Part shown: positions 22,039 through 34,071 of the stretch, one piece after another | Layout of the letters: each line of letters starts with the position of its first letter | Position numbering within the stretch: the first letter of the stretch is position 1 | Assembly: GCA_951828385.1 (NCBI GenBank) | Contig: OX639973.1 | Location: 4,517,200-4,581,199 of the forward strand | DNA: 64,000 nt | DNA from: an uncultured Poribacteria bacterium | GTDB taxonomy: Bacteria > Poribacteria > WGA-4E > WGA-3G | Reading direction: 5' to 3' | Notes under the pieces: model-generated | What the model was told of the DNA's origin: nothing | Database searches by the model: none | What the model saw: the letters and a program-made list of their open reading frames with translations, nothing else | Position numbers and translations under genes: made by a program

Positions 22039-25000
22039 ATGCAGATTCCGACACTCATTGACAATATAGAAGGGAACACCCTCCAAAAAGTTCTCGAAAG
22101 CCTCCTCGTAAAAAGTATCCGTTTAGATGTAGCGACCGGCACATTTGAAATTGGTGCATTTCTATCGCTCGGGAAAACGTGGCGGCACTTAGATGGGATT
22201 CGTCTCTTGATGGGTGACGAGACGACAAAACGCACAAAAGAGCATCTCATCAGAGCTCTCCGAGAAGTCACCGATGCCAATATTGAAGCCGAAAAGGAAC
22301 AGGATGACACCCTCCACGGGCTTGCTGCTGTACGCGAAGCAATTCGCACAGGACAAATTACCGTTCGCGTTTACGATAAAGCCAAGTTTCATGCGAAACT
22401 CAACTTAATGCACGCCCAAAATTCCAGTCCTGTTGACTTCGCTACCGTCGGCAGTTCCAACTTCACCCGTCCAGGCCTCACCCAAAACGTCGAGTTAAAT
22501 TCCTTCATCACAGATGCAACGCATATTGAAAAGCTCAGTGATTGGTATAATGCCCGTTGGGAAGAAGCCTCTGAGGTGAAGGAGGAACTGCTTCGGACGA
22601 TTGAACGACATCTTAGAGAATATCCACCGTTTACAGTTTATGCAAAAGCACTGCACACCTACTTTAGGGGACGCGAAAAACCTGCCGATGAGTGGGAAGA
22701 AAAGGAATCGGTGATTTACCGCACGCTTTCGCAGTACCAAAAAGATGGTTACCACGCCGCTCTCCAGATAGCCGATACATGGAATGGCGCGCTGATCTGT
22801 GATGGTGTCGGTAGCGGGAAAACGTACATCGGCTTGATGTTACTTGAACGCTATCTCAGAGACAACAAACGCGTCCTGCTCATCACCCCCAAATCGATTG
22901 AGGAAAGCGTTTGGAAAAGTCAGATTAATCGCCAACTTGAACCGAAGTATGGTCGTCTACTCCGCGAGCACTACGATATAAGTCGACATACCGATTTCGG
23001 TCGCCAAGGTCGGATAAGCGAAGGTAATCTTAAGTACTTTCGAGAACACAAGGACGTTATTATTATAGACGAAGCACACCATTTCCGAAATCCAAGTTCC
23101 AACCGCGGACGGCTTCTCATGGAACTTGCCAGAAACAAAAAACTCTATCTCCTCACCGCTACGCCGATCAATAACAGTGTCAACGATATTTCTCATCTGA
23201 TTAACTATTTCGCGCAGGGCAACAGCGGGCACTTCGCCAGCATCGGCATGCACGATTTCCGTAAGCACTTCCGCGATATTGACAAGAAGCTTGAGGATGA
23301 GAACGTCGAGATTGCCGAACAGGTTGAAGAAGACGATCTCCTTCGCCAAAATCCTGTGCTAAAACAAGTGCTCATTCAACGGAGTCGCAAATATATCAAG
23401 GATGCTGAGATGGAATCAGGAACACATATCCTCTTTCCAAAACGTGTTATAGAGCCTACCGTAGATTACTCACTCCGTCGAGTTTATCGAACGCTCTACG
23501 ACGAACTGCAAGCTGCCTTCGACCGACATGATCCGTTTCTCAATCTGGCAATTTACAACACTGTCAAGTATCATAAAAATCCAGAAAAACAGATTGAACA
23601 GCGCGAAAAGCAGGTTATCGGTCTTATCCGGACGCTTGTGCTCAAACGTTTAGAAAGTTCATGGAAAGCGTTTGAAGTAACTGTTGAAAATCTGCTTCTC
23701 AAGATGACAGGCTGGCTCGAGAAATACGCCCCAGAACGTTTTGAAATGTGGAAAGGCACAAATCGGAGGTGGTGGAGCGTTGTTCAGGAACACATACTTG
23801 AACGACTCCAAGAGGATGGCATCTCACGACAACGTAACCGAGTAAACCTACAGCGTTTTGTTGATTCCAATCCATCTGAAGAAGAAGACGACCTCGCTTC
23901 AATTGAAACCGAAGACGATTTCATTCTGGACGACCATGATGTAGACATGTTATTTGACGATGTTGTGGACGATATGAACTTCTTGACCGGTCTCCTCAGT
24001 CGAATCTATAGGCTTTTCTATGCTGACGAGTTGGCTAACGAACCTGATACACAGCAAGATGATAAACTCCAGCAGCTTCTAAAACTGTTAAAAAAGCATC
24101 CGAATAAGAAAATACTGATCTTTAGCGAATTCTGTGACACGGCTCGCTACCTTGACAAACAGTTGCAGCAAGCAGGTTTTAAGAATATAGAACAAATTGA
24201 TAGCCGACGCAAAGTAAACCGTGAAGAAATTATTGAACGATTTTCGCCATGCTACAACAGTAGATCCCCTGAAAGTGTTGAACCGGTTCAAACGCTAATC
24301 ACGACAGATGTCCTCGCTGAAGGTCTCAACTTACAGGACGCTTCTATTATCATTAATTACGATTTACATTGGAATCCAGTCCGACTTATGCAGCGCATCG
24401 GTAGATTAGACCGACGGCTTGACCCAGCAATTGAGGTGCTCCTCAACCGTACAGACCCTACCGTTCACGTCTGGAATTTCCTGCCACCAACGGAGCTTGA
24501 TGACATTCTCAGACTCCGAAGACGCGTTGATGGCAAAATTCTTCGGATCAGTCGTACCCTCGGTATTGAAGGGCAGTTTGTTTCGCCTGATGATCCTGAC
24601 GAGACAATCCGACTTTTCAATGAACGCTATGAGGGCACGGAAAACACTGAGGAACTGATGAATCTTGAACGTCAACGCATCTCTGAATTACACCCTGAAC
24701 TGTGGAGACAACTGCCAAATCTTCCGATGCGTCTTTTTTCTGGCAAAGGTGTAGACGACGAGCCGCCACCTTTCCTCAATCGCGATGGTGAATCTGTCCC
24801 ACTTGATCGTGTCGGTAACCCTGGAGTTTTCTGTTGTTATGAGATGCCAAACGGCGAAATTAAGTGGTATTTCTACGATACTTACATAGAAGACGTTATT
24901 GATGACATTGAGGCAGTCTGGCCCGAGGTGCGTTGTGATATCGAAACGGCGTGCTGGACTGAGGACGGACCGGGAGCACTCGTGGATGCCCGTAAAAAAA

Positions 25001-25092
25001 TTGAACGCTACATACGCAACAAGTATCTCAAGCATATACAGACATCCATGGGTGCAAAATCTAAACTTATCGCATGGATGGAAATTTCATGA
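22039..25092 (+). CDS. PLD-nuclease/SNF2-type helicase fusion (defence or restriction protein)
   Basis: This 1017-residue protein joins two parts. Residues 1-200 form a phospholipase D-like nuclease domain with one HxK motif (KFHAKLNLM, His118/Lys120) followed by GSSNFTRPG. Residues about 230-850 form a superfamily 2 SNF2-like helicase: Walker A GVGSGKTYIG (about 254), DEAH box IIDEAHHFRN (about 343), LLTATPINN (about 371), and motif VI in MQRIGRLDRR (about 785) after LAEGLNLQDA. The C-terminal 150 residues are unassigned. PLD-helicase fusions next to an N6-adenine methyltransferase are typical of restriction-like defence loci. The helicase would move on DNA and the PLD part could cut unmethylated DNA. 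RBS is weak. It is followed 31 bases later by a small gene and then the methyltransferase. Confidence 0.88.
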   Translation: MQIPTLIDNIEGNTLQKVLESLLVKSIRLDVATGTFEIGAFLSLGKTWRHLDGIRLLMGDETTKRTKEHLIRALREVTDANIEAEKEQDDTLHGLAAVREAIRTGQITVRVYDKAKFHAKLNLMHAQNSSPVDFATVGSSNFTRPGLTQNVELNSFITDATHIEKLSDWYNARWEEASEVKEELLRTIERHLREYPPFTVYAKALHTYFRGREKPADEWEEKESVIYRTLSQYQKDGYHAALQIADTWNGALICDGVGSGKTYIGLMLLERYLRDNKRVLLITPKSIEESVWKSQINRQLEPKYGRLLREHYDISRHTDFGRQGRISEGNLKYFREHKDVIIIDEAHHFRNPSSNRGRLLMELARNKKLYLLTATPINNSVNDISHLINYFAQGNSGHFASIGMHDFRKHFRDIDKKLEDENVEIAEQVEEDDLLRQNPVLKQVLIQRSRKYIKDAEMESGTHILFPKRVIEPTVDYSLRRVYRTLYDELQAAFDRHDPFLNLAIYNTVKYHKNPEKQIEQREKQVIGLIRTLVLKRLESSWKAFEVTVENLLLKMTGWLEKYAPERFEMWKGTNRRWWSVVQEHILERLQEDGISRQRNRVNLQRFVDSNPSEEEDDLASIETEDDFILDDHDVDMLFDDVVDDMNFLTGLLSRIYRLFYADELANEPDTQQDDKLQQLLKLLKKHPNKKILIFSEFCDTARYLDKQLQQAGFKNIEQIDSRRKVNREEIIERFSPCYNSRSPESVEPVQTLITTDVLAEGLNLQDASIIINYDLHWNPVRLMQRIGRLDRRLDPAIEVLLNRTDPTVHVWNFLPPTELDDILRLRRRVDGKILRISRTLGIEGQFVSPDDPDETIRLFNERYEGTENTEELMNLERQRISELHPELWRQLPNLPMRLFSGKGVDDEPPPFLNRDGESVPLDRVGNPGVFCCYEMPNGEIKWYFYDTYIEDVIDDIEAVWPEVRCDIETACWTEDGPGALVDARKKIERYIRNKYLKHIQTSMGAKSKLIAWMEIS

Positions 25093-25123
25093 GAACAATT
25101 TTGATAAGGGGAGGCAGCGACAG

Positions 25124-25693
25124 ATGCTTGATAATATTGCACACGATATTCAAAAGGTTCACAACTTTGAATCTTTAGTCGATTTTTTACGAGATACGCT
25201 CTATTGGCCCATTCCGGACGAAGGACTGGAGTTTGAAGAAATTACCTATGACTGGTCCGCAGAAGATCTTAGACTTGACGCTAACACCGAAGCCAGAATT
25301 ATTAGTTGTAGACAATTGCAGCTTTACGATCTCGAATTTGATTTATCTGCGATGGTGCGTAAATCTAATGGTAAAACTGATACCTATCAGCAGCTGCAAC
25401 TTTTAGATTTAGATTCGCTGGATAACCAACAACCGTGGGGTATCTTCTTTATTGAATTTTCAGATGACGTGGAACTTGATGCCTGCAAAACCCTTTTACG
25501 CCGAGTCCTTCGAGGACTCGTTGATGGACCCAATCATAACGTTTGGCTTCCATTTTGGGACTATGATAGACTGCTTTTTATCTGTACTACCACCAGTTTT
25601 CAAGATATTAGTTTTGCGTCCTTCAGCGGTGGGAAAAATCGTCCTATTGTTGATGACTATATTCTACTGCACTATTTCCGATTGGATTCATAA
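25124..25693 (+). CDS. Stand-alone copy of the methyltransferase N-terminal domain
   Basis: The ATG at 25124 follows GGGGAGG; a longer frame reaches back to 24899 but overlaps the helicase coding region. The 189-residue product aligns end to end with about the first 155 residues of the next protein. Examples are NFESLVDFLRDTLYWPIP against DFDTLLDFLREELDWPIP, QPWGIFFIEF against QPWGIFFLQF, LLRRVLRGLVD against ALRRVLRGLVE, and LLFICTTTSFQ against LLFICTTTDYQ. It has no methyltransferase motif. It is therefore a free recognition, docking or specificity module made by tandem duplication, with an extra insertion in the middle. Gene order and spacing (10 bases to the next ATG) indicate one operon. 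Function is unknown. Confidence 0.82.
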   Translation: MLDNIAHDIQKVHNFESLVDFLRDTLYWPIPDEGLEFEEITYDWSAEDLRLDANTEARIISCRQLQLYDLEFDLSAMVRKSNGKTDTYQQLQLLDLDSLDNQQPWGIFFIEFSDDVELDACKTLLRRVLRGLVDGPNHNVWLPFWDYDRLLFICTTTSFQDISFASFSGGKNRPIVDDYILLHYFRLDS

Positions 25694-25702
25694 GGAAACC
25701 GA

Positions 25703-28690
25703 ATGCCATACATAACACCAAACAATATTCATAACATCCGTGACTTTGACACCCTCTTAGATTTTCTACGCGAGGAACTTGATTGGCCTATTCCCGAAAA
25801 CGTTGAACTCGAAGATATTGCCTTCCCTTGGACCGCCGAAGACCTTGATCTCGATGAACTGACTGAAGAATTGGTCATTAACTGCCAACAGCTGCCCCCT
25901 TTCTCGACCAGTCAACCGACGCTTGGAATTTTTGAGGACACTCAGCCGTGGGGTATCTTTTTTCTCCAATTCGACAGCGAAAAGGTCTATCGCACTGCGC
26001 TCCGTCGTGTCCTCCGTGGACTTGTTGAAAGGCGAGATCGGGACGCAAGCCTACCTGCATGGAAACACGACCATCTCCTCTTTATCTGTACCACAACCGA
26101 CTATCAACGCTTTGCCTTTGCACACTTCGCTGCCACTGCGGAAAACTGGCACCGTGCTGTGCTATCTATCTTCTCTTGGGAACAGGGAGATACACATATC
26201 CGTACGCTCTGTGAATATAACCTTCCCGCGCTCGCCTTTCCAAGCGACGGCTTTTCAGATGACACAGCATGGTTAAAAGCATGGCAAGAAGCATTTGATG
26301 TAGAGACAGTTACCGATAAATTCTTTCGTGATTACCAAAGTGTCTTTGCCCAAGTAGAAGCCGCTGTTGAAGGTATTCCAGAAGACGAAACAGAAACACG
26401 CCGACTCTACACGCAGCGTCTCTTTAACCGATTGATGTTTCTCCGTTTTATTGAAAAGAAAGGATGGCTTACCTACAACGGTAATCGCGATTACCTCCGT
26501 TCCCTCTTTGATGCAACAGAGGCACAAACAGACGAAAACTTTCTCAATGACCGACTCTATTGGGCATTCTTTCATGGGCTTGGTAACCCTGCGAATTTAC
26601 CTCAGGATTTGGCTGAGGCTGTTGAACGGCGCGGTGAAGTCCCGTTTCTCAATGGCGGACTCTTTGAAATGCAGGAATATGACAACCGCAACGCTGTCCA
26701 TATTCCAAATGACAAATTTTCCGAAATCCTGAAACTTTTTGAGCGGTACAATTTCACGGTAACCGAATCCACCCCCCTTGATATTGAGGTGGCAGTCGAT
26801 CCAGAGATGCTCGGAAAGGTATTTGAAGAACTCGTAACCGGTAGACACGACACCGGCAGCTACTACACACCGCGCCCAGTGGTCTCCTTTATGTGCCGCG
26901 AGAGTCTAAAAATCTGCCTCCAGAATAAAACCGACGAGACACCGGAAACCCTCAAGGCGTTTGTTGATGATGGGGATGCAACGGAAATTCGCAATCCAGA
27001 GAAAGTGTTACAGGTGCTGCAGACGCTTCGGATATGCGATCCGGCGTGTGGCAGCGGTGCCTATCTACTCGGTATGATGAGCGAGTTGCTCCGCTTGCGA
27101 GACGCGCTCTTCCAAAGTAAAGAGATCGACTCAAAATCAACCTATCAACGCAAACTTGACATCATTCAGCAAAACCTCTACGGCGTGGATAAGGACGAAT
27201 TCGCTGTCAATATCGCTATGCTCCGCTTGTGGCTCAGCCTTGCAGTCGATTACGAAGACGATACCCCAGAACCATTGCCCAACCTCGACTATAAAGTAGC
27301 AACGGGGGATAGTTTGACCGGTCCCGCACCCGAACAAATCAGTCTCGCGAGTCACTTGATTGACCAGATTCAGGAACATCAAGCCGAATTTCTGGTCACC
27401 TATACTGATCCAGAGAAACAGAGGCTCCGGGAGGAGATTGCTGAACTCAGAGGACATCTCCAAGAATGGCAAGCAAGCGATGATGAATTTGTCTGGCAGG
27501 TTGAGTTTCCAGAAGTATTCCAAGAGGGCGGATTTGATATTGTTATTGGTAATCCGCCCTACGTGCGTCAAGAACTCATCAGGCCGATTAAGCCGACTTT
27601 AAAAAGATTGTTCCCGGAAGTCTATATAGGAACTGCGGACCTCTACGTCTACTTTTACAAACGTGGAACGGAGCTGCTTCGTGTTGGTGGAGTTCTCACG
27701 TATATCTCCTCTAATAATTTTCTGAGGGTAGCCTACGGGGCAAGACTCCGATTGTTTTTTACTAGTGAAGTGTGCTTACATAGACTTCTTGATTTTGGAA
27801 ATGTTCCAGTTTTTGGCGCGAGTGTAAACACTTGTATTGTCCTTGTTGAAAACACTACACCGGGTGGAGAGGCATTTTTCGCCGCTACTTTTCGTGACGA
27901 GGCGGATGTTTCTCGTCTCTCTGATGCGTTTCAAGGGCGTGCTTTTTCCATGAATACCGGGGATTTATCACCTGATGGATGGGCATTGACATCACCGGAG
28001 GCACTGAAATTGCTCAGGAAACTAAAAGACATCGGAGTGCCGTTGGGAGAATATGTGGATATGGGTTTCTATATGGGGGTGAAAACTGGATGTAATGCTG
28101 CATTTGTCATCGATGAATCTGTAAGTCGGCAGTTAATTGCTGAAGATATTAACAGCAGTGAACTCATAAAACCGGTGCTGAGAGGTAGGGGGCTTAGCAG
28201 ATGGAAAACCGAGTCAGTGAAAGAATATCTGATAACAGTAGCGAGCAGTGTAAATAGAGAGTGGCCCTGGTCAGATGCAAGAAACGATTTAGAAGCAGAA
28301 CGGATTTTCGCTGAAACCTATCCAGCAATCTATCAACATCTGAGCAATTATCGGGAACGGTTGATTGCACGCGATGATCAGGGAAGATTTTATTGGGAAC
28401 TCCGTTCTTGTGCCTATTATACCGAGTTTGGAAAGCCGAAAATTGTTTATACACAAACAGCAAAATTGCTCTACGCGTGCTATGACACAGGGAAGGCATT
28501 TGGATTAAACAATGTATACTTTATACCTACCAATGACCTTTCCCTACTTGCTATTTTAAATAGTCAGCTTTTTGATTGGTACGCTCGGCACAAATTTTAT
28601 AGTCTTAATGATCCCTGGGCGGGTGGAGGTTTGCAGTTTTTTGCACAGTACATGGAGAAGGTCCCAATTGTACTGCCTACGGTTTTTTAG
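25703..28690 (+). pseudogene. Eco57I-like N6-adenine DNA methyltransferase, 3' end cut off by insertions
   Basis: The open frame gives 995 residues. It has an N-terminal domain (1-155) shared with the preceding gene, a linker helical region, a methyltransferase core with motif I DPACGSGAYLLGM (about 446) and motif IV IVIGNPPYVRQEL (about 616), and a C-terminal target-recognition-like region (GVKTGCNAAFVID, RGRGLSRWK). The last residues MEKVPIVLP run straight into a TAG that belongs to the IS3 end. The normal C-terminal helical tail of this family is found 2.5 kb downstream at 31184-31369. All catalytic motifs are intact, so the truncated protein might still methylate, but the full-length gene is broken. 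Confidence 0.88.
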
Positions 28691-28747
28691 GCCACTCCCT
28701 AAAACAAGATTGTGCTATAATACAATCTCACTGAAAGGAGTTATCTA

Positions 28748-29032
28748 ATGGCCAAACGAAGAAAATTCACCTCCGAGTTTAAGACGGAACTCGTTCTGGA
28801 GGTTCTTAGCGGTGCGACTTCTCAAGCAGAAGTGTGTCGGCGTCATAATCTCAATGAGGACCAACTCTCGAAATGGAAGCAGCAGTTTCTTGAAAAAGCC
28901 CCCTCGCTGTTTGATTCTACTGATAAACCGTCCAGCGATGCGGAGAAGCGTATCACTCACCTTGAGCATCTCGTTGGGAGAATGGCCGTGGCGTTAGACA
29001 TCCAAAAAAAACTATTGACATGGTTGGACTAA
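28748..29032 (+). CDS. IS3-family transposase OrfA
   Basis: The 94-residue protein has an N-terminal helix-turn-helix of the IS3/IS911 type (RRKFTSEFKTELVLEVLSG, QAEVCRRHNL, LSKWKQQFLEKA) and a leucine-zipper-like C-terminal helix. OrfA binds the element ends and, fused to OrfB by frameshifting, forms the active transposase. RBS AAAGGAG precedes the ATG. Confidence 0.92.
   Translation: MAKRRKFTSEFKTELVLEVLSGATSQAEVCRRHNLNEDQLSKWKQQFLEKAPSLFDSTDKPSSDAEKRITHLEHLVGRMAVALDIQKKLLTWLD
29004..29011 (+). other. Programmed -1 frameshift site of the IS3 element
   Basis: Eight consecutive A residues include the heptamer A AAA AAA in the correct phase (codons AAA at 29006 and 29009) just before the end of orfA. 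orfB is in the -1 frame and overlaps orfA, as needed for production of OrfAB. A slippery run in the right phase is seen; frameshifting itself is inferred. Confidence 0.7.
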
Positions 29033-29868
29033 CGTTGTCTGAGAAGCGATGCTTCATTTCGGCATTGCAAAAGGAGCATTCCGTGCGAGATATTTCTGGC
29101 ATCCTCGGTGTCAACCGGGGTAGTTTCTATTATCACCGCCAAGAGGATCCGTCCGAAGCCGTCCTGCGATCAGAAATAGAGAAACTTGCTGGACAGTATC
29201 CGAGATACGGGTATAGGCGTATCACGCAGTTGCTACAGCGTCAGGGATACACCGTTGGAACCCGACGCGTCGCCCGGTTGATGAAAGAGAAGAATCTCTT
29301 AGTCTCCGTCAAGCGTGCCGGTCAAACCACAAAATCGCTTCAGGCGGATAAACCTTGGAGCAACCTGCTCGAAAACCTTGACGTTTCTCATCAGGATCAG
29401 GTCTGGGTTTCCGATATTACATACGTCCGTCTCAAGGGACGCTTCATCTATCTCTGCCTGCTCATGGATGTTTTCACCCGGATGATCAGAGCTTGGCAAC
29501 TCAGTCAGCACTTGAACCAATCTCTGACGCTCAAACCGCTGAAAGAGGCATTGGACCACAGCGTCCCGGAGATTCATCATTCCGATCAAGGCGTGCAGTA
29601 TCTTTCAAAGGTCTATATTACCACGCTCGAAGCACATGGCATTGAGATTTCCGTCGCCCGTCGCGGATGCCCTTGGGAGAACGGATATGCTGAAAGACTC
29701 ATCCGCACGCTCAAAGAGGAAGAAGTTGACATCAATGACTATCAAAGCATCACCGAGGCGAGAGATCGCATCGGACATTTTATCGAACAAGTGTATAATC
29801 AGAAACGTCCACATTCGGCGTTAGGATATTTGACACCTATCGAATTTCAACGACAAAACTTGTCTTAA
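29020..29868 (+). CDS. IS3-family transposase OrfB (DDE integrase)
   Basis: The 282-residue reading frame has the IS3 OrfB layout: HTH_21 region (RYGYRRITQLLQRQGYTVG) and an rve integrase core with the DDE residues in VWVSDITYV (first Asp), IHHSDQGVQY (second Asp) and WENGYAERLIRTLKEEEV (Glu). It ends YNQKRPHSALGYLTPIEF, as usual. The catalytic set is complete, so the element may still be active. Confidence 0.93.
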   Translation: MVGLTLSEKRCFISALQKEHSVRDISGILGVNRGSFYYHRQEDPSEAVLRSEIEKLAGQYPRYGYRRITQLLQRQGYTVGTRRVARLMKEKNLLVSVKRAGQTTKSLQADKPWSNLLENLDVSHQDQVWVSDITYVRLKGRFIYLCLLMDVFTRMIRAWQLSQHLNQSLTLKPLKEALDHSVPEIHHSDQGVQYLSKVYITTLEAHGIEISVARRGCPWENGYAERLIRTLKEEEVDINDYQSITEARDRIGHFIEQVYNQKRPHSALGYLTPIEFQRQNLS

Positions 29869-29926
29869 CTTTGCTAAATTGTGGCCTAAATAAGCGTATG
29901 CACTTCACAATAGCCGATGTCAATAA

Positions 29927-30124
29927 CCCCCGACTGAAGTCGGGGGCTTGTGCGAAGCGTATACCAAACGTTCACTCCACAAGTTAAACTATTTTCTACA
30001 GTAAAATATCGTAATATCTGTGGTGGTTCACAAAAGTATTTAGGATACTCCCCTCGTCCTATATCAATGCCGATATTACGATCTGGAAGGGGCAATATAC
30101 AACCCGTAAGGGAGATTACAAACG
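29927..30124 (+). ncRNA. Candidate omega RNA (HEARO-like) of the IsrB element
   Basis: The 198 bases before isrB contain no gene but several nested pairings. These are the 8-bp terminal hairpin (29927-29946), CTTGTG/CACAAG (29947-29952 with 29978-29983), and an 11-bp perfect long-range stem ATCGTAATATC (30008-30018) with GATATTACGAT (30072-30082). IscB/IsrB proteins use an RNA transcribed just upstream of their gene, with the guide at its 5' end taken from sequence outside the element. Here that would be bases just left of 29927. Structure is seen; function is by analogy. Confidence 0.65.
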
Positions 30125-31153
30125 ATGTTTGTTCCGGTGACGAGTCAAACAGGTCAGAAGTTGATGCCTACGCATGCTAACAAGGCGGGCGTGCTGATTA
30201 AGAAAGGTTTAGCCACGCCCTATTGGTCTAATGGGATATTCTGTATCCGGCTTAACTATGCTACCGAAGACGCATACACACAAGATATAGTCGTCGGTGT
30301 AGACCCCGGTAGCAAGAAAGAAGGCTTTACCGTCAAATCAGAGGCACACACTTACTTGAATGTGCAAGCAGACGCTCACGGGACTGTCGGCAAGAAAGTC
30401 GCGAAGCGTAGTGAGTTGCGTAGAAGTCGGCGTTCACGAAAATGTCCGAATCGCAAACAGAAAAAGCACAATCTATCTAATAGAGACCGTATCCCCGCAG
30501 GCACGCGTGCGAGATGGGATTGGAAGTTAAGGGTTCTTGATTGGCTTTCTAAACTCTATCCACTCACGCATGTCTGCGTTGAAGATATTAAGGCGCCGAC
30601 GATACAACGTGCAAAGAAGTGGAATCAATCGTTTAGTCCTTTGGAAGTCGGTAAACAGTGGTTCTATAGCGAAATCCAAAAGCGTTGGGAACTCTACACT
30701 TTACAGGGTTGGGAAACCAAAGAGATACGGGATAGGTTAGGTCTCAAGAAGTCTTCAAAGAAACTATCAGAAACCTTTGACGCACACTGTGTAGACAGTT
30801 GGTGTCTGGCACATCATAGCGTAGGCGGTTTGGATATACCCGATAACACGACGCTTCTGTGTATCTCACCGATACCGATAAAACGCAGAGAGTTGCATAG
30901 GCAACAGGAAGCGAAAGGCGGTAAACGCACACGGGTGGGCGGAACTCTATTAGGGAAAGGATTGGTCAAAAACACACTCATTCGGCATGTCAAATACGGA
31001 TTAGCCCGACTCGCTGGCGTTAACGCAAAGGGTTTGTTTTCAATATACAGTATGGAAAACAAACGATTAACCACGGGGGCGAAGCGGTCTGATTTCAGAG
31101 TGCTAACACGTCTTAACTTTTACTACAAGAGCGGTGTTTCCTCCCCTGAATGA
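30125..31153 (+). CDS. isrB: IsrB, HNH-less IscB-type RNA-guided nickase
   Basis: The 342-residue protein has the IscB/IsrB order: an N-terminal PLMP-type domain (VPVTSQTGQKLMPTHANKAG), RuvC-I with Asp60 (VGVDPGSKKEG), an Arg-rich bridge helix (about 94-114, RRSRRSRK), RuvC-II with Glu153 (VCVEDI) and RuvC-III with His221/Asp224 (FDAHCVDSW). About 65 residues separate RuvC-II and RuvC-III, with no HNH motif, which distinguishes IsrB from IscB (HNH inserted there). Known IsrB proteins of about 350 residues nick DNA using an omega RNA. The stop codon lies within the right-end hairpin. AAGGGAG lies 12 bases before the ATG. All RuvC residues are present. Confidence 0.85.
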   Translation: MFVPVTSQTGQKLMPTHANKAGVLIKKGLATPYWSNGIFCIRLNYATEDAYTQDIVVGVDPGSKKEGFTVKSEAHTYLNVQADAHGTVGKKVAKRSELRRSRRSRKCPNRKQKKHNLSNRDRIPAGTRARWDWKLRVLDWLSKLYPLTHVCVEDIKAPTIQRAKKWNQSFSPLEVGKQWFYSEIQKRWELYTLQGWETKEIRDRLGLKKSSKKLSETFDAHCVDSWCLAHHSVGGLDIPDNTTLLCISPIPIKRRELHRQQEAKGGKRTRVGGTLLGKGLVKNTLIRHVKYGLARLAGVNAKGLFSIYSMENKRLTTGAKRSDFRVLTRLNFYYKSGVSSPE

Positions 31154-31183
31154 ATTCAGGGGTTTCCACACCGAAGATAAGAG

Positions 31184-31369
31184 ATGACATCAACACAGAA
31201 AGCAGAGTTGTCACGTCTCGTCAAGCAGATATTAGCAGACCCGCAAAGCGATGGCGTACGTGATGTTGAGCGGGAGATAGACGAGTTGGTGTATCAGCTA
31301 TATGGGTTAACAGATGCGGAGATTGAACTGATTAAGCAGACATATCGTGATGCTGGCATGGAGGTGTAA
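31184..31369 (+). pseudogene. Detached C-terminal tail of the methyltransferase
   Basis: The 61 residues (STQKAELSRLVKQILADP near the start, then EREIDELVYQLYGLTDAEI) are the helical tail that normally ends Eco57I/type IIG methyltransferases. They match what is missing from the frame that stops at 28690. Between the two parts lie an IS3 element and an isrB element. An in-frame TAA lies 6 bases before the ATG, so it is not translated as part of the larger protein. It could only be made as a separate peptide if at all. Confidence 0.85.
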
Positions 31370-31411: not shown

Positions 31412-33772
31412 TTATGCCTCTTCGGTCTCCAAAAATGCTCGGAAGGCTTTATGTATCTGAAAACGTTCTTCTGTTCCTTTCCTGTTTGCGAATTTCCTAG
31501 CCATAATTTTGTTCTTGCGAGAATTCTCCGGTTCTTCAGAAAAAATAAAACTATTTTCTCTTACTTCTATTCCGAGGAATGTTAAGTCATGAAGAAGGTC
31601 AATTGTAGATTCTATCCTGTCTTCTGAAATCCCTGCTAATTTTAATGTTTCTGTTACTTGCTTCTTCCGCAAAATAACGGGCATTCCAGCAAACTCATAG
31701 ATGGCATCTTCAAGATTTATATCGGGTGAAGTATTTTCTGCCTTAATACTATCAAGGACTTGCGAGAAATACTGTTTCTCTGCCTCAAATATATCTTCTT
31801 CTTCTATCAATGGATGCCTTTTATTAATAGCTGTTGTTACTGCAGTATTTACGAAATAGATAATGTCTCTTGGTCTTTTCAAGATAGTATTGATTATATA
31901 TTCTCTAGTGGGTATTCCATTAACGGTTGAGCAGAAGTATTGGTCCCATAAGATAGTCGATTCTGGTGTATCAAACGAGGAACAAAATCGTTCTTCTATT
32001 ATGGACAACAGTTCTGGATCATTCCACTTTAGTAGAGAATAAGTCATTTTGTCTGGTTCATTGGCAACTTGCCTAATCCTATAAAAAATGTCGGACCGGA
32101 GAAAAATAGTAAGACTAAGTTTTATTCTTTGCTGTTTACTACTTTGCTGTTGAAGTTCTATAGGAAGTTGTTTGGCTACCTCTAGTAAACTCCACAAAAT
32201 TTCAGACAAGGCATCTATGTCGTTTTGCCGTTCCCACGCCTGGTCCAAATTATCAATTAGAATAGCGATCCTTTGCTCATTTGATAAGAGATTGCCTAGT
32301 TCTATCCGCAATTGTCTCAAAGTGTGACTGTGCAAAATCTCAGAGACTGAAGAATGAATGTTTTCATCATTGGATCCTTCTATTTTTTCTTTAATGTCTT
32401 GAGTACATATCTCTAATCTTGTGGAAAAATCTTCACAAATTATTTCCCTATTTTTCTCAGCAAAGTTGAAGAAACGCTCTGCTGCGTCGGTACTCCGAAC
32501 CGATGGCGGATTGTTATAAACCGTATGGGCAATTTCAGTCAGGAGCAAAAATTTCCATAGGCTTTCTACTGCAGATACTTTATCTTTTCGATGTTGATAC
32601 TGTTTTAGAAGATCTACTACCGCTAGCATCTGGGATCGTTGTGGTTTTATTACACATACCACATTTCGCTGGTGCCTATTGAGTTCATCTTTTAATTTTA
32701 TCAAGTTAGCAGTTTTGCCTGACCCTTTGCGACCAACAAATAGAGTTTGATTACCTCTCACAGCATCGTCGTATGCAGCTGTTGGAATAAAGTATTTCTC
32801 TACTAGACTTTCTTCTTCATATTCAGCGACATGATCTCCAAAACGTAAACTCCTAAGATCTCTAGCTAATTTTGCTGTATGTTGAACCCCAGTTGCTTCT
32901 TGTATGGTTTTCAGAGTTTGTTCTATAGGAGGGATCCACTCGTTCAAATATCTAAGTGCCTCTGCTGCTGTTTTATAAGATCTAAGGTCATCACGAAAAT
33001 CAATAGGTGGTAGGAAATCGTCCTCGGCAAGCATAAGCAACGGCTTTTTCCAACCATAAGCCATACCACAAACCAAGGCGTGTCGAGCAGTTTGAATGTA
33101 TCCACCTTCTCTTTTAAGACTCATAAAGTGGCAAACCATACCGTTACAGTTAAAAACATTGCTGCCATACCAAGCCAACGACTGGACAGTGGATTCACGA
33201 GGGTCATCAATAGTAATTCTTTTGGCGAATGTTTTTTGAAGTAAATTAGACACGCGGACAGCGGCTTGGTCTTCGTGCTCTCTTTTCAAGTGAAAAATGC
33301 TCGGATAACTATTATCTTTTAGACTAGGTTTTATTTCATCCTTGAAAAGTGTATTCTCTATGCTCGCGTAGGGTCTTTCCTTATGGAAACCCTTAACGAT
33401 GTCATCGGAATTGCAGCACCGAGTGTATGCAACGGTACTCAAAACTCCCAACTGATTAAACAATTTTTTTGCTTCTGTATATGTGTCATCAAATATTAAC
33501 CAGATCCGTTTATCATGAGCTATTGCATAGCCGAGTTCAAACATCACATTGTGGTTCAATCCTGTCAAGTCGGCAAAGAAGAGTTCAGCTTCGTCGATTT
33601 CTTGACGGATGGTTTTGATAATAAAATTTCCGCTGGGATTGCATTCCTCCCAAGATTTTATATTTACTAGCCTACTTTTATTTATTTTAGGAACAGCGTC
33701 TCGGATTGCCTCTTTTAAAGTGTCTCCACTTGATGGATACGCAAAAAATGCTTTTGGAGTTGTGTTTGCCAT
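31412..33772 (-). CDS. P-loop ATPase (Sll1717-like) with two N-terminal deoxyribosyltransferase/TIR-like domains
   Basis: A promoter at 33857-33885 lies inside the longer open frame (to 33910). The start is therefore ATG 33772 with AAAAGGA upstream, giving 786 residues. Residues 1-150 form a nucleoside 2-deoxyribosyltransferase/TIR-related fold: FFAYPSSGDTL, a conserved Trp-Glu-Glu, and AELFFADLTGLNHNVMFELGYAIA with the Asp and Glu typical of these folds. A second similar unit spans about 185-300 (HALVCGMAYGWKKPLLMLAEDD). Then comes a STAND/AAA-like ATPase with Walker A LFVGRKGSGKTANLI (about 343) and Walker B AILIDNLDQAW (about 502), and a helical C-terminus ending in a winged-helix-like region. 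This resembles P-loop ATPases of the Sll1717 group. The sensor-effector design suggests an NAD- or nucleotide-acting defence protein; this is inference. Confidence 0.75.
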   Translation of the reverse strand: MANTTPKAFFAYPSSGDTLKEAIRDAVPKINKSRLVNIKSWEECNPSGNFIIKTIRQEIDEAELFFADLTGLNHNVMFELGYAIAHDKRIWLIFDDTYTEAKKLFNQLGVLSTVAYTRCCNSDDIVKGFHKERPYASIENTLFKDEIKPSLKDNSYPSIFHLKREHEDQAAVRVSNLLQKTFAKRITIDDPRESTVQSLAWYGSNVFNCNGMVCHFMSLKREGGYIQTARHALVCGMAYGWKKPLLMLAEDDFLPPIDFRDDLRSYKTAAEALRYLNEWIPPIEQTLKTIQEATGVQHTAKLARDLRSLRFGDHVAEYEEESLVEKYFIPTAAYDDAVRGNQTLFVGRKGSGKTANLIKLKDELNRHQRNVVCVIKPQRSQMLAVVDLLKQYQHRKDKVSAVESLWKFLLLTEIAHTVYNNPPSVRSTDAAERFFNFAEKNREIICEDFSTRLEICTQDIKEKIEGSNDENIHSSVSEILHSHTLRQLRIELGNLLSNEQRIAILIDNLDQAWERQNDIDALSEILWSLLEVAKQLPIELQQQSSKQQRIKLSLTIFLRSDIFYRIRQVANEPDKMTYSLLKWNDPELLSIIEERFCSSFDTPESTILWDQYFCSTVNGIPTREYIINTILKRPRDIIYFVNTAVTTAINKRHPLIEEEDIFEAEKQYFSQVLDSIKAENTSPDINLEDAIYEFAGMPVILRKKQVTETLKLAGISEDRIESTIDLLHDLTFLGIEVRENSFIFSEEPENSRKNKIMARKFANRKGTEERFQIHKAFRAFLETEEA

Positions 33773-33856
33773 TATATCTATGTCCTTTTTTGACGATTTT
33801 GCCTTGCTACTGTTATCGGTGGAGTGAAATGGAAAACATACTATATGCGCGCCCAT

Positions 33857-33885
33857 ATCATAGCACATTTCGGCAGAAAAATCAA
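33857..33885 (-). promoter_or_regulatory. Promoter for the ATPase gene
   Basis: On the minus strand, TTGATT (33885-33880), a 17-base spacer and TATGAT (33862-33857). Its position shows that translation must start downstream, at 33772. Confidence 0.6.
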
Positions 33886-34071
33886 GTGTATTTTGTTTCA
33901 GCAAAATCACTTAGTACTCGGTCTTAAATCCCGGCAGTGCGCGATGTGTTCATTTCTGACATATATTGATTGGTGTGTAAGTTGTATAGGTTGAGAAATG
34001 CAAAAATTAAGTTAACTCAGCAAGTCTATTGAAGGTGTAAGATAGCGCGGGTGAGGAGACTCGCTTTTCCT

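Follow-up and report, generated by a model that had tools for sequence, protein, structure and literature searches.

Why should a restriction-type operon carry a free-standing copy of a domain of its own methyltransferase? This question is raised by a small gene in the window, which here means the whole 64,000-nucleotide stretch of DNA that was analyzed. The operon sits on the chromosome of a Candidatus Poribacteria bacterium with a 6.66-Mb single-contig genome, and close relatives carry the same name. Its upstream gene (22039-25092, + strand) encodes a 1017-amino acid helicase protein with an N-terminal PLD nuclease (HxK...GSSN) and an SNF2 motor behind it, in which Walker A, DEAH, and motif VI are present. 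The downstream gene (25703-28690, +) is a 995-amino acid ORF for an adenine DNA methyltransferase with Eco57I (PF07669) and TaqI_C domains and DPACGSG and NPPY motifs; its 3' end is cut by an insertion. By its motifs, with PLD and SNF2 united in a single protein and motif I and NPPY in the neighboring methyltransferase, the pair is a putative restriction–modification (RM) system, the pairing recurs in other genomes, and PADLOC labels the methyltransferase as Type IIG. A variable slot extends from the helicase stop codon to the methyltransferase start (25093-25702, +) and holds the ORF of the 189-amino acid protein, which was confirmed at 25124-25693 (+). A spacer of 31 bp separates the helicase stop codon from the small gene, and one of 9 bp separates the small gene from the methyltransferase; a Shine-Dalgarno-like sequence lies ahead of each of these two genes.

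Residues 7-160 of the small protein aligned by BLASTP to residues 7-135 of the methyltransferase with 41% identity and 58% positives (E 4e-32), a similarity far beyond chance. The initial annotation, made from the sequence alone, was therefore right in describing a separate copy of the methyltransferase N-terminal domain (NTD; 25703-26218, +) in a restriction-type operon. It had also claimed alignment along the whole length of the protein, which applies to residues 7-160 but not further: a gap of ~25 amino acids is needed at small-protein residues ~66-101, which have low confidence in the structural model, and the last ~25 residues form a tail of their own that matches the methyltransferase only in overall fold position. 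This C-terminal tail (G.KNRPIVDDYI..FRLD, 25631-25690, +) is found in most free-standing copies, with the consensus G.KxRPIVDDYIPL..FKLD, and is missing from the methyltransferase NTD. Pfam, NCBIfam, and PADLOC gave zero matches for the small protein, which was accordingly assigned to no known domain family. Searches of phage and plasmid collections with the small protein retrieved no relatives, and the domain profile gave no confirmed relative among viral contigs. The initial annotation knew of no described system with such an arrangement. In agreement, a literature search, with most subscription journals outside its coverage, turned up no account of restriction operons that encode a methyltransferase NTD as a protein of its own.

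The distribution of the gene was determined by a scan of 84 Poribacteria genomes, including inspection of the neighborhoods. The helicase/methyltransferase operon was present in 22 of the 84 genomes, counting G027, where the methyltransferase is off the contig, and not counting a fragment in G050. Eleven of these 22 contained the small gene (G000, G059, G048, G054, G071, G029, G031, G060, G033, G037, and G027), so that the three-gene order of the window recurs across the phylum. The gene lies between the helicase and methyltransferase genes wherever both neighbors are on the contig, and none was found away from the operon among the 84 genomes. The copy in G060 is partial, next to a run of N on a contig that ends before the helicase. 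Operons without the small gene occur in G070, G077, G055, G056, G052, G046, G022, G072, G042, G057, and G034; among these, the helicase is degraded in G052 and was not seen on the contig in G034, and a 26-residue match is left in G046. One copy outside the phylum (G192, L108:11324) looked free-standing but was not counted, as the homology runs on past an in-frame TAG; it is probably a broken fusion. The locus (L108:11324-12499), downstream of a helicase/methyltransferase pair, comprises the NTD copy, the TAG, and a C-terminal part, and the ORFs from 12499 on resemble CRISPR type III (Cmr-like) genes as judged by eye only.

A phylogenetic tree was built from 68 copies of the domain. The free-standing Poribacteria copies, ten of which were part of it, formed one clade (support 100/96), and the 19 proteins in which the NTD is joined to a TRD (NTD+TRD proteins) formed a separate clade (100/100). 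Pairwise dN/dS values of the small gene were 0.12-0.40 for pairs with unsaturated dS, and the bootstrap upper limits were ≤0.75 in every pair tested. For the methyltransferase NTD, dN/dS was about 0.05-0.25, the small gene being the faster-evolving of the two. It has one ancient origin in Poribacteria and has been kept under purifying selection. The initial annotation had allowed for a recent, non-functional duplication in case the gene was absent elsewhere and under relaxed selection; its presence in half of the operon-bearing genomes and its dN/dS values speak against this, and a recent dead duplicate is ruled out by the single clade, the selection test, and the common tail. In a wider sense, a leftover or non-functional copy of the 5' end of the methyltransferase gene would fit the patchy presence of the gene and its damaged-looking copies (an altered tail in G059, no final strand in G033, and the short match in G046), but is very improbable for an old single clade with a common tail and an ORF that is intact across several species and under purifying selection.

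AlphaFold2 predicted an alpha/beta domain both for the small protein (mean pLDDT 74) and for the methyltransferase NTD (pLDDT 79); the 34 of 189 small-protein residues with a pLDDT under 50 are all in a single loop. Foldseek gave no match at E ≤ 0.001 with either model, and a profile search of PDB sequences yielded nothing meaningful. VIA-align matched the small-protein model to the N-terminal nuclease regions of BpuSI (Z 4.8, rmsd 4.4, 116 aligned) and DrdV (Z 4.3, rmsd 4.1, 101 aligned), both at a level reached by chance in common folds; these matches were not listed with the methyltransferase NTD model. The (D/E)xK catalytic motif of PD-(D/E)XK nucleases was not found in the conserved columns of the domain-family alignment, and the only charged residue conserved to >90% across the family is one arginine, a pattern that fits a binding domain better than a catalytic one. 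The missing motif disfavors a catalytic nuclease; the BpuSI and DrdV matches, weak and listed with one model only, would neither establish nor discount a nuclease fold.

The domain matched no Pfam or NCBIfam model and occurs in three architectures: as methyltransferase NTD, in stand-alone specificity-like proteins (NTD+TRD), and as the free-standing protein. It is N-terminal in helicase-paired methyltransferases across phyla, where the specificity domains differ (TaqI_C in the window, Type_ISP_C in L038). The NTD+TRD proteins of Poribacteria have about 450-500 amino acids and are mostly encoded beside a separate ~330-amino acid NPPW methyltransferase and an epimerase gene, as expected if the domain joins subunits. 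This split system was observed at a conserved site in several Poribacteria (e.g. L112:6265-9917, L113:7247-10917, and L119:6706-10697) and has no helicase gene; helicase docking, therefore, cannot be the sole role of the domain. What its contexts have in common is a putative DNA-modifying assembly and not the helicase. Given the lack of a conserved nuclease motif and of any confident fold match in the PDB, we infer a non-catalytic docking or assembly domain, whose binding partner would explain all three architectures. In G028 (L076:6124-17857), five NTD+TRD units stand in tandem, the first of them as part of a fusion with a large methyltransferase (1681 amino acids), possibly as an array of alternative specificities.

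From these data, we tentatively favor the small protein as an optional accessory subunit of the PLD-SNF2 helicase/adenine methyltransferase RM system, in which the methyltransferase NTD would dock and the free copy would form this contact too, be its partner the methyltransferase core, a second NTD, or the helicase. It may thereby compete with the methyltransferase's own NTD or bridge it, and such competition or bridging would set the share of restriction-competent complexes formed. Since half of the operons lack the small gene, it would modulate the core and not be required for the existence of the core. The faster evolution of the small gene, its damaged-looking copies, and the interruption of the core methyltransferase in the window genome weigh against this view. 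The initial annotation had proposed a recognition or docking domain acting as a specificity switch, an inhibitor, or an adaptor that lets the helicase share the methyltransferase interface; these are candidate roles, with no target-recognition module in the domain and helicase sharing as one possibility. The free copy might instead take the position of an NTD+TRD protein, as a minimal specificity-like or chain-terminating subunit, and change the targets that the methyltransferase selects or its stoichiometry. Specificity-like proteins begin with this very domain, and the exchange of small-gene alleles described below resembles specificity-gene swapping; nevertheless, this role is rather unlikely, because a TRD (TaqI_C, as in the NTD+TRD proteins) is missing from the 189-amino acid protein, which has no Pfam match, and it could not itself recognize DNA as NTD+TRD proteins are expected to. 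Expression control is a common need of restriction-type systems, and a protein encoded inside the operon could serve as its transcriptional or DNA-binding controller, analogous to C proteins and apart from complex assembly. Such a function is improbable given that no HTH or other Pfam match was obtained for the small protein, that its homology is to a methyltransferase domain and not to a regulator, and that many operons do without it.

The new feature of the locus is that the slot holding the small gene, from the helicase stop codon to just short of the methyltransferase start, is exchangeable. At this position, helicase/methyltransferase pairs that are closely related differ widely in their small-gene alleles, or have a toxin-antitoxin pair or a PIN gene in its place, or nothing. 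In G054 and G057, the helicase ends are 99% identical up to the stop codon, beyond which the small gene follows in G054 but a Gp49/HigB-like toxin gene in G057; identity returns (95%) in a HigA-like antitoxin gene ahead of the methyltransferase. Between G031 and G033, dS is 0.2-0.5 for the helicase and 0.3-0.4 for the methyltransferase, whereas the small gene is near saturation (dS about 2.6). The opposite applies to G029 versus G031, with a dS of mostly about 1 in the core and of 0.24 in the small gene. In several pairs, homology ends at the helicase stop codon and returns within about 10 bp of the methyltransferase start. Mis-binning of contigs may contribute to the pattern, but it would not give breakpoints at gene ends inside single contigs. 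Gain, loss, or exchange of the small gene has not followed that of the helicase and methyltransferase genes and has always affected the same operon slot, presumably by recombination in the conserved flanks. Its product is old and maintained, and apparently an exchangeable part of a restriction system in sponge-associated Poribacteria.

Elsewhere in Poribacteria, the slot is taken by HigBA-like pairs, a PIN protein, an MqsA-like protein, or a 225-amino acid protein. The corresponding gap in Verrucomicrobia relatives is occupied by an MqsA/HTH plus SecB-like set, NYN, ORF6N, or a pair of AAA ATPase and DUF4276. The first of these was observed in Akkermansiaceae (L040:6479-7958, L038, and L042) as a 141-amino acid ORF, an MqsA/HTH antitoxin, and a SecB-like protein, a toxin-antitoxin-chaperone-like set for which Pfam was run on L040 only.

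A restriction operon with a free copy of its own methyltransferase domain, in a slot shared with toxin-antitoxin and other genes, offers a testable case of how restriction systems are checked or shielded from phage inhibitors. It is possible, though doubtful, that the slot serves as an exchange site for safety or regulatory genes and that the free NTD is a mimic of the core enzyme, either a tunable inhibitor or an anti-restriction decoy, diversified by allele exchange. Taken by itself, the decoy function is unlikely. The free copy would soak up phage anti-restriction proteins that bind the methyltransferase NTD and so shield the core, and allele exchange would track the phage inhibitors. A complete single domain without effector or TRD, its faster evolution compared with the methyltransferase NTD, the exchange of alleles against a near-constant core (G031 versus G033, G029 versus G031), and a slot that also carries toxin-antitoxin and PIN genes, typical back-up functions, are all in line with a decoy. 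However, no inhibitor of the NTD domain is known, and the exchange pattern equally fits regulatory or specificity partners. For the exchange pattern, a decoy would be as good an explanation as the competition or bridging expected of the accessory subunit that we favor.

The arrangement was compared with known systems. Type-2 BR systems comprise loci with an HKD-Snf2 helicase and an N6-methyltransferase of the DUF1156 type, together with a DUF499 ATPase and DUF3780 (PMC12839542). The window operon shares with them the N-terminal HKD nuclease fused to an Snf2 helicase, an adenine methyltransferase, and a further small component. Unlike in Type-2 BR, its methyltransferase is of the Eco57I/TaqI_C type with a different NTD (Pfam gave no match to the DUF1156 N-terminal domain in this protein, and Eco57I and TaqI_C instead), and its small protein is a paralogue of that NTD. 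With regard to DUF499 and DUF3780, the small protein matched no Pfam family, in a scan that covered part of the neighboring ORFs. The CxC-ABC/PbeABCD system is likewise an HKD-SF2 helicase operon with a fast-evolving small protein, SP/PbeB, which is described as mostly disordered and has been proposed as a negative regulator (PMC10853773). For the small protein studied here, in contrast, the predicted structure is largely folded and the sequence shows homology to a portion of the methyltransferase; no ABC ATPase was seen in the window operon. The arrangement differs from both. With Type IIG/Type ISP enzymes, it has in common the organization of a methyltransferase core plus TRD, in agreement with the PADLOC call and with Type_ISP_C in the Verrucomicrobia relatives; it differs in that the N-terminal domain is without a nuclease motif, the nuclease is part of a separate PLD-helicase protein, and the NTD also occurs as a separate gene. 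The ATP-dependent CglI/NgoAVII systems also combine a PLD nuclease, an SF2 motor, and a methyltransferase, but there the PLD nuclease and the helicase are two distinct proteins (R and H/N), and no NTD paralogue is described in the parts of these reports that were covered (PMC4267653, PMC5737866).

In the window genome, METHYLTRANSFERASE is broken: the ORF ends after 995 amino acids versus ~1050 amino acids in intact relatives. From about residue 990 onward, the methyltransferase gene is disrupted by an IS3 element together with an IscB/IsrB-like insert, a point missed in the initial annotation, and with its core methyltransferase broken in this way the operon may be decaying. The combined insertion (28687-31186) consists of an IS3-type element (about 28687-29889, +), whose TTAGGCCAC ends are imperfect and which contains two transposase ORFs (28748-29032 and 29020-29868), and an RRXRR (IscB/IsrB-like) ORF (30125-31153, +). 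The displaced last ~60 residues of the methyltransferase follow at 31187-31366 (+) with 59-87% identity to intact relatives. Just upstream of the RRXRR ORF, a weak, sub-threshold match to HEARO RNA was observed at 29919-30100. Further downstream, on the opposite strand (31412-33910, −), an ORF encodes an 832-amino acid protein, possibly a defense ATPase, for which nucleoside deoxyribosyltransferase and AAA domains gave weak matches.
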